DNA from: Sphingobacteriia bacterium
GTDB taxonomy: Bacteria > Bacteroidota > Bacteroidia > Bacteroidales > UBA7960
NCBI GenBank assembly: GCA_011390785.1
Contig: JAABRR010000007.1
Location: forward strand, 62,001 to 126,000
DNA length: 64,000 nucleotides
Reading direction: 5' to 3'
Shown: positions 22,154 through 46,778 of the stretch, one piece after another
How positions within the stretch are numbered: position 1 is the stretch's first letter
How the letters are laid out: every line of letters starts with the position of its first letter
Position numbers and translations under genes: made by a program
The notes under the pieces: model-generated
Told to the model about the DNA's origin: nothing
The model's input: only the letters and a program-made list of their open reading frames with translations
Databases searched by the model: none

Positions 22154-23533
22154 CTAACCGATTCGTTCCAGTTTAATCGTAAAATGCCGCAAAATAGGTG
22201 CCTCTGAAACAATTCTAAATCCTTTTTTGATTTCATTTCTTCGTTGCCACAAATTAGCCAGAGCAGCCGCAACATAATCCATGTGGTTGTTGGTATAAAC
22301 CCTTCGGGGAATTGCCAGCCTGACCAGTTCAAGTGTAGGATATCGGTTTTCACGTGTTACAGGGTTTCTGTCTGCCATTAAGGTTCCAATTTCAACTCCC
22401 CTAACTCCGCTTTCAAGATACAACTCTACAGCCAGGGTTTGCGCCTGATATTCTTCTTTGGTAACGTTGGGCAAAAATTCTTTTGCATTAACGAATACGG
22501 CATGACCGCCAGTGGGTTGCTGTATGGGGACGTTGTATTCTGTAAGCTTTTTCCCCAGGTAGGCTACCTGCCCTATTCTGGCTTCAAGGTAGTTAAACTC
22601 TGTACCTTCCATCAGCCCCTGCGCCAAAGCACCAAGGTCGCGGCCAGCAAGTCCGCCATAAGTAAGATACCCTTCATACATTATATTAAAAACTGAGGCT
22701 TTTTGGAAAACAGATTTATCCCGTAAAATAATAAAACCACCAATGTTAACGATTGCATCTTTCTTGCTACTCATGGTTGCTCCATCAACGAAAGAGAACA
22801 TCTCTTTTACAATTTCCCTAATTGTTTTATTGGTATATTCTTTTTCGCGTGTTTTAATGAAATACGCATTCTCAGCAAAGCGTGCCGCATCAAAAATTGG
22901 TAATACACCGTATTTGCGACACAAGGACGATACTTCCCCAATATTCTGCATAGAAACCGGTTGTCCGCCACTTGTATTACAGGTAATTGTTATGATACAA
23001 AGCGGGATTTTTTCTTTGGGATATTTTTTAAACACATCTTCCAGCTTCTGTAAATCAATATTTCCCTTGAAAGGGTGATATTCATCCGTATGGCAAGCTT
23101 CATCAATGGTACAGTCAATGGCCCGTGCCCTGCGATATTCGATATGACCTTTGGTAGTGTCAAAATGCGAATTTCCGGGTACCACATCACCTTCTTTAAT
23201 CAAGGCAGAAAACAAAACATTTTCAGCAGCCCTGCCTTGATGTGTGGGCAAAAAGTAAGGCATGTCAAATAAATCATGTATTACATTCTCCAGTTTGAAA
23301 AAACTCGAGGAACCAGCGTAACTCTCATCACCAAGCATAATTTCCGACCATTGATACTGACTCATGGCTCCTGTGCCAGAATCGGTAAGTAAATCGATAA
23401 ATACCTGTTCGCTTCGTAAATTGAACAGATTATAGCCTGCATCTTTCATCCATTGTTCTCTTTGTTCGCGGGAGCTTCGATATAATGGCTCCACAACCTT
23501 CATTTTCCATGGTTCTGCAAAGGGTAATTCCAT
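22154..23533 (-). CDS. tnaA: Tryptophanase
   Basis: TnaA is a PLP-dependent beta-eliminating lyase that splits tryptophan into indole, pyruvate and ammonia. The PLP lysine is Lys258 in MSSKKD. Segments NSHFDTTKGHIEYRRA, FDAARFAENAYFIK and DRNPVTRENRYPTLELVRLAIPRR agree with tryptophanase better than with tyrosine phenol-lyase. Length 459 is normal. No tryptophan permease is adjacent. A ~180-base leader may precede it, but it holds no Trp-containing TnaC-like peptide. Confidence 0.93.
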   Translation of the reverse strand: MELPFAEPWKMKVVEPLYRSSREQREQWMKDAGYNLFNLRSEQVFIDLLTDSGTGAMSQYQWSEIMLGDESYAGSSSFFKLENVIHDLFDMPYFLPTHQGRAAENVLFSALIKEGDVVPGNSHFDTTKGHIEYRRARAIDCTIDEACHTDEYHPFKGNIDLQKLEDVFKKYPKEKIPLCIITITCNTSGGQPVSMQNIGEVSSLCRKYGVLPIFDAARFAENAYFIKTREKEYTNKTIREIVKEMFSFVDGATMSSKKDAIVNIGGFIILRDKSVFQKASVFNIMYEGYLTYGGLAGRDLGALAQGLMEGTEFNYLEARIGQVAYLGKKLTEYNVPIQQPTGGHAVFVNAKEFLPNVTKEEYQAQTLAVELYLESGVRGVEIGTLMADRNPVTRENRYPTLELVRLAIPRRVYTNNHMDYVAAALANLWQRRNEIKKGFRIVSEAPILRHFTIKLERIG

Positions 23534-24021: not shown

Positions 24022-24099
24022 ATGAAAAAACACACAAGTGTATGTTGTTGTTACCTTCTTACTTTCGTTGCGATGAGAAGGTTCACAATTGTGGTATAA
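24022..24099 (+). CDS. Cysteine-codon leader peptide of the cysE-cysK operon
   Basis: A 25-codon frame (ATG 24022, TAA 24097-24099) contains SVCCCYLLTF, three consecutive TGT cysteine codons at positions 8-10. It ends 25 bases before a strong terminator and 100 bases before the gene for serine acetyltransferase, the first step of cysteine synthesis. Just after the Cys codons, CCTTCT (24054-24059) can pair with AGAAGG (24076-24081); the latter segment, extended to 24072-24082, can instead pair with the 5' arm of the terminator (24125-24135) at 10 of 11 positions. That is the layout of ribosome-mediated attenuation: when Cys-tRNA is short the ribosome stalls and the terminator cannot form. Confidence 0.85.
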   Translation: MKKHTSVCCCYLLTFVAMRRFTIVV

Positions 24100-24124
24100 A
24101 ATATTTCTTAACCAATACACATAG

Positions 24125-24157
24125 ACCCTTTCATTGCTATAAATGAGAGGGTTTTTT
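24125..24157 (+). terminator. Attenuator terminator of the cysteine operon
   Basis: An 11-bp stem (ACCCTTTCATT against AATGAGAGGGT, one T-G pair, six-base loop) is followed by TTTTTT. It lies between the leader peptide and cysE, so it must be conditional rather than a final terminator. Confidence 0.85.
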
Positions 24158-24198: not shown

Positions 24199-25032
24199 AT
24201 GGAAAATTTAAGAACATTTGCTGAGAGGCTTTTTCAAGATAGTACAGCAGAAGAGTGCTTTATGCCCTGTAAAACGCATAGTAATAAGTTTGTAAACGAT
24301 ATGATGGAATTATTATTTCCGCTGGATATTCCCCGTAATACCGAAGAATACCTGATGCGTTTCCGAGACAGAGAGTTACAATTCAGGAAACTACTTAATA
24401 GCCTTAAAGTATTGCTGAAGCAGGATATTCAGACCATCATTGATGATTTTTTCAATTCTCTTCCAGAAATTTATGATAACCTTCGGAAAGATGCAGAATC
24501 GATTTATAAATTTGATCCTGCAGCAGCAAGTATCCAGGAAGTGGTTCATGCTTATCCTGGGTTTTTCTCAATTATCGTTTATCGCCTGGCTCACCAACTG
24601 GTAAAACAAAATGTACCTGTTTTGCCAAGGCTAATGTCTGAATATGCTCATGGTAGAACCGGAATTGACATAAATCCGGGTGCAATTATCGGTAATAGCT
24701 TTTTTATTGACCACGGAACTGGAGTAGTAATTGGTGAAACTACCGAAATTGGCAATAATGTAAAGATTTATCAGGGAGTAACACTGGGAGCACTTTCTGT
24801 TGAAAAGTCGCTTGCAGCTACCAAAAGGCATCCAACCATTGAAGACAATGTAATAATTTATGCAGGGAGTACAGTGTTGGGTGGTAAAACTGTTATTGGC
24901 AGAGATTCTGTTATTGGCGGTAATGTGTGGCTTACCGAAAGCGTGCCACCCAACTCTATTGTTTATCATAAAAGTGAAGTAAGAATCCGTTCGGGTAGAC
25001 TTTTTAATGAGCCCATCAATTATGTAATTTAA
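24199..25032 (+). CDS. cysE: Serine O-acetyltransferase
   Basis: It transfers acetyl from acetyl-CoA to serine, giving O-acetylserine for cysteine synthase. After a helical N-terminal domain (~1-150) comes a left-handed hexapeptide-repeat beta helix (~150-265) with GRTGIDINPGAIIGNSFFIDHG and VVIGETTEIGNNVKIYQGVTLGA, where the catalytic histidines lie. Length 277. The gene follows the Cys-codon leader and terminator and precedes cysK by 87 bases, giving a two-gene cysteine operon. The extended N-terminus is typical of the longer family members. Confidence 0.95.
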   Translation: MENLRTFAERLFQDSTAEECFMPCKTHSNKFVNDMMELLFPLDIPRNTEEYLMRFRDRELQFRKLLNSLKVLLKQDIQTIIDDFFNSLPEIYDNLRKDAESIYKFDPAAASIQEVVHAYPGFFSIIVYRLAHQLVKQNVPVLPRLMSEYAHGRTGIDINPGAIIGNSFFIDHGTGVVIGETTEIGNNVKIYQGVTLGALSVEKSLAATKRHPTIEDNVIIYAGSTVLGGKTVIGRDSVIGGNVWLTESVPPNSIVYHKSEVRIRSGRLFNEPINYVI

Positions 25033-25119: not shown

Positions 25120-26034
25120 ATGAAAGTAAACAACATTCTCGAACTCATTGGTAATACGCCTCATGTTAAAATAAACAAGCTCTACCCTTCAGACTATGAA
25201 GTGTGGATGAAACTTGAAAAGACCAATCCTGGAGCAAGTATAAAAGATCGTATTGCTCTTTCAATGATTGAAGCTGCAGAGCAATCCGGAGAATTGAAAC
25301 CTGGTGGAACGATTATAGAACCTACATCAGGAAATACAGGGATTGGCATTGCTTTAGTGGCTGCTGTAAAAGGCTATAAAGTTATTCTTGTTATGCCAGA
25401 GAGCATGTCTATAGAAAGAAGACGAATTATGAAAGTTCTGGGTGCGGAATTTGTGCTTACACCTCGCGAAAAGGGTATGAAAGGAGCTATTGAGCAGGCA
25501 ATAAATCTAACTGAACGCACTCCAAATGCCTGGATGCCAAAACAATTTGAAAATCCTGCAAATCCTAAAGTTCACGTGGAAAAGACTGCATTGGAAATTC
25601 TTGCTGATTTTCCAGATGGGCTCGATTATATGATTACGGGAGTGGGCACCGGAGGGCATATAACCGGAGTAGCAAAAGTATTAAAAGAAAAGTTCCCATC
25701 TATTAAAGTGTATGCAGTAGAGCCTTCACTTTCACCTGTAATTAGTGGCGGAGAACCCGGACCTCACCCATTGCAGGGAATTGGTGCAGGTTTTATTCCC
25801 CAGGTACTTGATAAATCTTTGCTTGATGGTGTAATAACTGTATCAAAGGAAGAAGCTTTTGAATTTACCAAAAATTCTGCTCTGAAGGAAGGAATTTTTA
25901 TTGGTATATCATCAGGAGCATCTCTTGCAGCCGTAAGTAAAAAAATTCCGGAATTACCTTTGGGATCAAAAATCCTTACTTTTTGCTACGATACCGGAGA
26001 ACGTTATTTATCGGTTGATGGCTTGTTTGAATAA
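25120..26034 (+). CDS. cysK: Cysteine synthase (O-acetylserine sulfhydrylase)
   Basis: It is a PLP enzyme that combines O-acetylserine with sulfide to make cysteine. The PLP lysine lies in [15 protein letters not shown] (about residue 42), the substrate loop is PTSGNTGIG, and the phosphate-binding loop is [10 protein letters not shown]. Length is 304. Whether it is CysK- or CysM-type cannot be settled by eye; the adjacency to cysE favours CysK. It is the second gene of the attenuated cysteine operon. Confidence 0.94.
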
Positions 26035-45041: not shown

Positions 45042-46706
45042 ATGCTTAGAAGTTATTTAAATGTAGGTTGTTTAACTGTGATCATTTCTTCCCTGTTATT
45101 TTTCGGAAGCATTGATACTGTCAGAGCTCAAAACCGTTTGCCCGCTACTTACCAGGTCAATTTGAGTACTCCCTATCATGCCATGTTAACGCATCTTCAT
45201 TTTTTGCAGTCAGAATCTTTTGATCCATCAAAATCAGCTTCTGTTTTTATGCATTCGGGCATTGATACGGTTACAGCCCGCGATTTGGCTATTAAACTAA
45301 AACAGTCATGGGATGGGAGAGGGCAATTAGTAAATGTAAATGTTATGCCTCGCAATCCCAATTATATGGATTCGGTAACCGAAAGAATGGTCTATCGTCC
45401 GGTTGCAAATACCCCCGATATTTTTCTTGAAAAGCAACCTGATGGCAGGTGGATGTATTCTCTGAGCAGTCTGGATGAAATTTATCGTTACCACTCAGAA
45501 GTTTTCCCCTATGGCTCAGACCGAATTATGAATTTGTTACCCCAACGGGGAAGTCATAAATTTATGGGACTATTTTTATGGCAGCATATTGGAATACTTA
45601 TCGTTATAACATTCGCTATTCTTTTTCATAAATTGCTTACTTTTTTATTTAACAGACTGTTGTTTCAGGGAGCATCAAGGCTTGGCTATAATAAAATTGT
45701 ACGACCCTATCTGTTGCCTGTAGCCAGGCCTTTAAGTCTTTTTGTAGTTTTTTTAATGGTATTGGTTCTTTTTCCTTTACTTCAGATACCACCCAAGGCA
45801 TCTTTTTATGTAAATATCGCCTTTCGGGCCATTCTACCCTTTTTTGCCACCCTGGTATTTTATCGGTTGGTTGATGTTATCGGGCTTTACCTTGAAGGTG
45901 TTGCGAACAAGAATGATTCAAGTCTTGACAACAATGTTGTACCTCTGTTACGAAAAATTTTACGGGTTTTTGTGGTGATTGTTGGGGGGTTATTTATTCT
46001 TCAAAATCTTGATGTAAATATCACTGCCTTGCTGGCAGGCCTGTCAATTGGGGGTTTGGCAGTTGCTCTTGCAGCCCAGGATACCCTTAAGAACATGTTT
46101 GGTTCATTTATGATATTTGTTGATAAACCTTTTTCTGTTGGTCACTGGATAACTAGCGGAGACATTGATGGTACCGTTGAAGAGGTAGGTTTTAGAAGTA
46201 CCCGTGTTAGAACATTTCGTAACTCTCTAACCTATGTTCCGAACGGAAAACTGGCTGATACTACCATCGACAATCATGGTTTAAGAGTTTACCGGCGGTT
46301 TTACATGCATATTGCTGTAACTTACGATACCCCTCCTGACCTGATTGAAGTATTTGTATTGGGTTTGCGAAAAATTGTTGAAAACCACCCCAAAACAAGG
46401 AAGGATTTTTTCCTTATTGAGTTTAATGAAATGGGGGATTTTGCTTTGAAAATTATGTTCTACATTTTCTTTGCGGTTCCCACATGGCCGGAAGAGCTAA
46501 GAGCCAGGCACGAAATTCTTATTGAAATAGTCAGGCTGGCAGAAAAACTCAATGTGAGATTTGCCTTCCCCACACAAACACTTCATATGGAAACATCACC
46601 CGGAAAAGAAGGTCTTACACCACGCTACGATATGAGTATGTTGGAATTTAAAGAAGTGATGGAAGAGTATTTCCATTCAAAAGAAAAAAATAAAAATAAT
46701 CTTTGA
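45042..46706 (+). CDS. MscS-family mechanosensitive channel with periplasmic domain
   Basis: The ATG at 45042 (554 residues) is preferred to a TTG at 45030. A signal peptide ends near VRAQ (~residue 30), then a ~140-residue periplasmic domain, several membrane helices (~180-340) and the MscS core: pore helix ITALLAGLSIGGLAVALAAQDTLKN, beta domain SVGHWI...DGTVEEVGFRSTRVRTFRNSLTYVPNGKLAD, and a cytoplasmic vestibule to residue ~520. It should open on membrane tension and release osmolytes. A terminator follows. Confidence 0.93.
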   Translation: MLRSYLNVGCLTVIISSLLFFGSIDTVRAQNRLPATYQVNLSTPYHAMLTHLHFLQSESFDPSKSASVFMHSGIDTVTARDLAIKLKQSWDGRGQLVNVNVMPRNPNYMDSVTERMVYRPVANTPDIFLEKQPDGRWMYSLSSLDEIYRYHSEVFPYGSDRIMNLLPQRGSHKFMGLFLWQHIGILIVITFAILFHKLLTFLFNRLLFQGASRLGYNKIVRPYLLPVARPLSLFVVFLMVLVLFPLLQIPPKASFYVNIAFRAILPFFATLVFYRLVDVIGLYLEGVANKNDSSLDNNVVPLLRKILRVFVVIVGGLFILQNLDVNITALLAGLSIGGLAVALAAQDTLKNMFGSFMIFVDKPFSVGHWITSGDIDGTVEEVGFRSTRVRTFRNSLTYVPNGKLADTTIDNHGLRVYRRFYMHIAVTYDTPPDLIEVFVLGLRKIVENHPKTRKDFFLIEFNEMGDFALKIMFYIFFAVPTWPEELRARHEILIEIVRLAEKLNVRFAFPTQTLHMETSPGKEGLTPRYDMSMLEFKEVMEEYFHSKEKNKNNL

Positions 46707-46722
46707 GCATAAAGGGTTATAT

Positions 46723-46760
46723 AAAAAAGCCCTTGCGTAAGTCTACTCAAGGGCTTTTTT
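46723..46760. terminator. Bidirectional terminator between mscS and the encapsulin gene
   Basis: A 13-bp stem (AAAAAAGCCCTTG against CAAGGGCTTTTTT) with a 12-base loop separates two convergent genes. Confidence 0.9.
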
Positions 46761-46778
46761 ATTTGATAATAGTTTCAT

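Follow-up and report, generated by a model that had tools for sequence, protein, structure and literature searches.

We have analyzed the cysE-cysK region in a window of 64,000 nucleotides from a Bacteroidales genome (the window being the whole stretch of DNA under study), and found in front of the operon a small open reading frame with a run of cysteine codons, a set of mutually exclusive hairpins and an intrinsic terminator. The comparison of this leader with its homologues indicates that it very probably controls the operon by ribosome-mediated attenuation of transcription, with the supply of Cys-tRNA as the signal. The parts are conserved in the same gene context, and both the antiterminator (2:3) and the terminator (3:4) covary. 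A first-pass annotation, made from the letters of the window, had proposed cysteine-keyed attenuation at this place, and the reading is supported by the conservation and covariation described below. As far as we have found, this is a classical type of switch in a new setting, the cysteine genes of Bacteroidota, and it is more widespread than had been supposed there.

The features of the locus are collected in Table 1. The leader peptide MKKHTSVCCCYLLTFVAMRRFTIVV contains the motif SVCCCY, and both the frame and its three TGT codons are where the first-pass annotation had placed them. With three Cys among 25 codons ahead of cysE-cysK, the frame is enriched in the codon of the amino acid that the operon produces. 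The intrinsic terminator lies between this frame and the first gene, 24 nt after the leader stop codon (24097-24099). Its stem (24124-24135 with 24142-24153) has 12 pairs and a predicted energy of -16.3 kcal/mol, G-U wobbles included, so that the six Ts reported before were right and the description of the arms as perfect was slightly generous. The two cysteine synthesis genes proposed downstream were confirmed by their NCBIfam profiles: CysE scored 155.7 bits against NF041874 (cut-off 150) and CysK 405 bits against TIGR01139 (cut-off 351), with a gap of about 90 nt between both genes. The nearest upstream gene, tnaA, is divergent, and no plausible plus-strand gene was found among the open reading frames of the window between it and the leader. 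There is thus no upstream gene for the terminator to serve, and the only transcript that it could end early is the one carrying the leader. Besides, the fold of the leader RNA is 4.5 sd better than the folds of its dinucleotide shuffles. The word TAnnTTTG is a common promoter word of Bacteroidota. It was found within 60 nt 5' of the leader start at 10 of 26 loci (1.6 expected); the window is not one of the ten, the exact word being absent just upstream of its leader.

Table 1. Elements of the cysE-cysK leader and neighboring genes, in positions of the window
Feature	Coordinates	Strand	Remarks
tnaA (tryptophanase)	22154-23533	minus	nearest upstream gene, divergent from the cysEK leader
Cysteine leader peptide ORF	24022-24099	+	MKKHTSVCCCYLLTFVAMRRFTIVV; ATG start, 25 codons; Cys-cluster uORFs equally placed in relatives
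Sensing codons TGT TGT TGT	24043-24051	+	three adjacent Cys codons; relatives keep Cys with TGT/TGC variation
Segment 1	24047-24061	+	partner of segment 2; holds Cys codons 2-3
Segment 2	24070-24089	+	upstream partner segment 1 (via 24071-24089), downstream partner segment 3 (via 24070-24083)
Segment 3	24124-24137	+	5' side of the terminator stem, or 3' side of the antiterminator
Segment 4	24142-24153	+	terminator 3' arm; stem covaries in alignments
Six-T tract of the intrinsic terminator	24152-24157	+	first two Ts also paired within the stem
cysE, serine O-acetyltransferase (EpsC/CysE type)	24199-25032	+	first regulated gene (predicted); NCBIfam NF041874
cysK, cysteine synthase A	25120-26034	+	second regulated gene (predicted); NCBIfam TIGR01139, synteny

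The leader can form three hairpins (1:2, 2:3 and 3:4) that exclude each other and fit the classical attenuator. The antiterminator pairs 24070-24083 with 24124-24137 through 13 pairs and one mismatch (-15.9 kcal/mol as a duplex). The pairing of 24072-24082 with 24125-24135 described previously is real and corresponds to the inner part of this slightly longer one. Similarly, the backward pairing, which had been placed at 24054-24059, extends from 24047-24061 to 24071-24089 (-14.1 kcal/mol by folding) and includes the second and third Cys codons, so that in the window an anti-antiterminator lies over the control codons. On a transcript ending after segment 3, the predicted probability of the 2:3 pairing was 0.34 in the free leader; it rose to 1.00 when the Cys codons were masked and fell to 0.04 when a ribosome was placed at the stop codon. 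The minimum-energy structure of the full leader still contained the terminator when the Cys codons were masked. Antitermination must therefore be kinetic, as is also the case in known attenuators.

According to the model that we propose, a ribosome would translate the 25-codon peptide while RNA polymerase transcribes the leader. When charged Cys-tRNA is scarce, the ribosome would stall on the three Cys codons and cover segment 1; segment 2 would then be free for segment 3, the terminator would not form and transcription would read through into cysEK. With ample Cys-tRNA, the ribosome would go on to the stop codon and either mask the end of segment 2 there or depart and let the 1:2 hairpin form; the 3:4 terminator would then form and end transcription near 24157. 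Given the usual footprint sizes, a ribosome whose A site holds a Cys codon should occlude segment 1 and spare segment 2, and one at the stop codon should extend over the 3' end of segment 2. We infer from this arrangement that the leader is translated, that transcription and translation are coupled and that the operon responds to cysteine. The model is concrete and testable, and would apply to the control of cysteine synthesis in a large phylum whose members live in the gut, in soils and in the sea. It suggests, too, that attenuation of the classical kind, and hence a sufficient coupling of ribosome and RNA polymerase, operates in the Bacteroidota, which make little use of Shine-Dalgarno sites and in which coupling has been little studied. 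The elements are easily found in new genomes, where they would serve to annotate sulfur-assimilation genes that have no known regulator.

We have examined the genus of the window's genome to find out how far the leader is conserved. Full-length cysE was present in 11 of the 12 genomes, with 74-81% identity in the others. The 300 nt upstream of the gene were available in ten, the window's own included, and eight of these had a uORF with a Cys cluster, when 0.07 would be expected from dinucleotide shuffles; the reverse strand of the same ten regions had none. Specifically, the leader of one locus (L008) has two Cys codons only, another (L007) has cysEK and lacks the leader, and in a third (L010) the region is cut by the contig end and retains the terminator. 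A search of the genus with a DNA pattern (TGY triplets, gap, GG and T-run) was too noisy to be of use. Apart from the Cys cluster, the leader peptides diverge nearly throughout (MKVILTNYAPCCCVLQFLAMPG, MVHPRKNYTVCCCTMKICALAGL and MNLPTISCLYCCTVINSATEWLCFVP are examples), which would be expected if the Cys codons alone matter. Cysteine was coded by TGT 78 times and by TGC 24 times over 26 loci, and this synonymous variation indicates that the conserved unit is the amino acid and not a DNA word. The first-pass annotation had named the lack of the Cys run or of the hairpins in close relatives as evidence that would speak against attenuation. Actually, the Cys run, terminator and antiterminator are kept, with compensatory change, in the genus, the family, the order and the Flavobacteriaceae.

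The strongest evidence is that segment 2 pairs better, on average, with the terminator arm of its own species. Over 38 representatives, of which a single locus belongs to the window's genus and the rest to different genera and families, this duplex had a mean energy of -13.6 kcal/mol, against -9.99 (sd 0.38) when the arms were permuted among species. Not one of 20000 permutations attained the value observed (p < 5e-5), a statistic that ignores residual kinship, relatedness among the representatives being only reduced. An earlier version of this comparison had used 25 loci. At about a quarter of the 38 loci several foreign arms paired better than the own one. Terminator arms as varied as CCCTTTCATTGC, GCCTTCCCAGTA, CCCTTCCGG, CCTCTGCC and CTCTCCGTAT are found among the relatives, and the fact that own pairing is kept among them indicates compensatory change. 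In the relatives segment 2 is usually found some 5-33 nt past the Cys run and is predicted to pair with its own segment 3, a location in which a ribosome on the control codons would free it. The terminator stem itself showed changes on both sides at 8 of 10 pairs in an alignment of 37 sequences, and the distance from the Cys run to the terminator was 67 +/- 8 nt over 47 loci, despite wide sequence divergence. Over the whole set, the predicted 2:3 probability under masking averaged 0.98 in the real leaders and 0.71 with shuffled spacers, a weak discrimination, and for this reason it is the swapping of arms that bears the argument. The 1:2 hairpin is predicted in most relatives.

These data also bear on the possibility that the Cys leader acts on the translation of cysE, the hairpin being a by-product, since Cys-rich uORFs have been described as translational attenuators in Mycobacterium smegmatis (cited in PMC13236596). 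Such a system, controlling initiation, would have no terminator, whereas here a strong stem with a T-rich tract is present in nearly every homologue, the stem covaries, and segment 2 covaries with the terminator arm. The scant use of Shine-Dalgarno sites in Bacteroidota argues in the same direction, and we consider control of translation improbable. Slightly less probable still is that the choice between terminator and antiterminator is made by an RNA that binds a metabolite, by a T-box or by a protein, the Cys run being incidental. The output stage of a riboswitch likewise consists of alternative pairing and a terminator, and there was weak similarity, below threshold, to Rfam families, the PyrR site (31 bits, gathering score 54) and the Phe leader (16.8 bits), mainly due to the shape of the terminator. 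No Rfam family was found at its gathering score, however, and the alignments contained no aptamer-like conserved sequence: what is kept is limited to the Cys codons, to segment 2 and to the terminator, with the Cys run in frame and synonymously variable.

Outside the genus, the leader was found ahead of cysE in further genera belonging to the family (L015, L016, L019, L021, L023, L024) and in other families of the order, first in L036, L040, L050, L053, L054, L059 and L061 and in a later set in L208, L209, L214, L223, L232, L239 and L242. The nearest named relative is the Bacteroidales MAG UBA4814, with a CysE 71% identical. Many cysE loci of the order have no such leader (for example L017 and L018). 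The element also precedes cysE in Flavobacterium, namely in F. jejuense (L113), F. luminosum (L116), F. suaedae (L125) and F. haoranii (L129). Thus it stands before cysE-cysK in both Bacteroidales and Flavobacteriaceae, with cysK following cysE in nearly all loci where this is visible, and the arrangement recurs in several orders of Bacteroidota. Similar leaders were found in Spirosomataceae (Runella, L095 and L098) and Chitinophagaceae (L108 and L110), located 90-200 nt upstream of cysE. Their stop codon follows the Cys run after only a few codons, and the distance to the terminator is shorter. In these four, a segment after the Cys codons resembles, as judged by eye, the complement of the terminator 5' arm; possibly they represent a design with distinct timing.

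Short ORFs and terminators are common, and weak matches of a covariance model of the leader elsewhere in the window's genome are ordinary terminators, as at 46627-46763, so one could think of a constitutive terminator or a chance hairpin next to a spurious small ORF. This is the least probable explanation of all, and is contradicted by the comparative data, that is, by the conservation, the fixed spacing and the own-partner pairing across families. Besides, none of the 22 weaker matches of the model in the genus had a Cys-cluster uORF at the match.

There is prior evidence of related systems. The enterobacterial trp, his, leu, ilv, thr and phe attenuators share with the leader described here the runs of product codons, the competing 1:2, 2:3 and 3:4 pairings, the intrinsic terminator and the biosynthetic operon downstream; they differ in the codon, which is Cys here, in the host, a member of the Bacteroidota, and in that the mechanism is predicted here from sequence. 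For Actinobacteria, a study of 2005 predicted leader peptides with Cys runs ahead of cys operons, where terminators were not obvious (PMC1262725), and the polycysteine leaders of M. smegmatis were reported as translational attenuators (Canestrari et al. 2020, as cited in PMC13236596). The short uORF, the run of Cys codons and the location upstream of cysteine genes are common to these and to the leaders described here (PMC1262725; PMC13236596). In contrast to them, the leaders described here have an intrinsic terminator, which is conserved, and a covarying antiterminator, and their Cys run is usually well ahead of the stop, the Runella and Chitinophagaceae cases being close to it. The uORFC-8-2 motif found before cysS in Rhodobacterales is closer: tandem Cys codons inside the first stem, an intrinsic terminator and predicted ribosome-mediated attenuation (PMC8632094). 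It precedes a cysteinyl-tRNA synthetase gene in Alphaproteobacteria, whereas here cysteine biosynthesis and sulfur assimilation genes of Bacteroidota are involved; it is by these downstream genes (cysE, cysK) and by the host that we set both apart. Within the phylum, leader-peptide attenuation of amino acid operons has been inferred from mapped 5' regions in Flavobacterium psychrophilum, and the main text names no cysteine among them (PMC9723704). The first-pass annotation had considered a Cys-codon attenuator in Bacteroidota little or not described. As regards the phylum this agrees with our literature search, which covered few subscription papers and gave no description of one; as regards Cys leaders in general, the actinobacterial and rhodobacterial reports came before.

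A covariance model built from the cysE leaders found leaders outside its training set, and all but two of them precede genes of sulfur or thiol metabolism. In the window's genome the cysE copy alone scores as a Cys attenuator; a match of the model at 46627-46763 of the window (E 0.005) was rejected, being an ordinary terminator between two converging genes, similar to the terminator half of the model and with no Cys leader. Among 247 genomes of the order, the strongest matches precede cysE, and further ones were located before cysK (L211/L234) and before an OsmC-like gene (L231). The genome of the latter (G188) has this second Cys attenuator beside the one of cysE; OsmC-like proteins are related to thiol peroxidases. 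In the class (396 genomes), we found leaders that carry Cys codons, or Cys together with Met codons, and share the terminator spacing of the cysE leaders. They were found before genes of NirA/sulfite reductase type (L251, L257, L260, L266, L268, L270, L272), an assignment by resemblance to the NirA and sulfite reductase families that stays below the curated cut-offs, before O-acetylhomoserine sulfhydrylase, metY (L256, L275), and before cysE (L262), an ATP-grasp gene (L265) and an aldo/keto reductase-like ORF (L252). One representative protein each was scanned for the sulfite reductase type and for metY, the others being assigned by resemblance. All these counts are lower bounds, given the strict filters of the large searches and the subset of leader-like matches inspected.

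From this distribution it seems rather likely that sulfur assimilation in much of the Bacteroidia is controlled by a distributed regulon of attenuators, instead of or on top of a protein regulator, in which Cys leaders would serve cysEK, cysK and sulfite reductase-type genes, and Met/Cys leaders, with dual sensing, metY and sulfite reductase-type genes. The mixed leaders (L251, L252, L256, L257, L260, L268, L270, L272 and L275, at about 1440-1640 of the loci) stand mostly before the sulfite reductase-type genes and metY. Examples are MNFNKTNMYSALNNHMQMMCMCCYMLLFARGNLCFK ahead of metY and MNDITFKAGTIRIAMMCCCCCMMNDSSGSDL ahead of a sulfite reductase-type gene. Their mixed codons suggest that one such leader may sense both sulfur amino acids. 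At 1440-1640 of L265, the gene of the ATP-grasp ligase is preceded by a terminator and by a leader in which eight codons are Cys, MKTISHIAAAFCCVCCCCACWRGKASCVLR; the enzyme may act in thiol metabolism.
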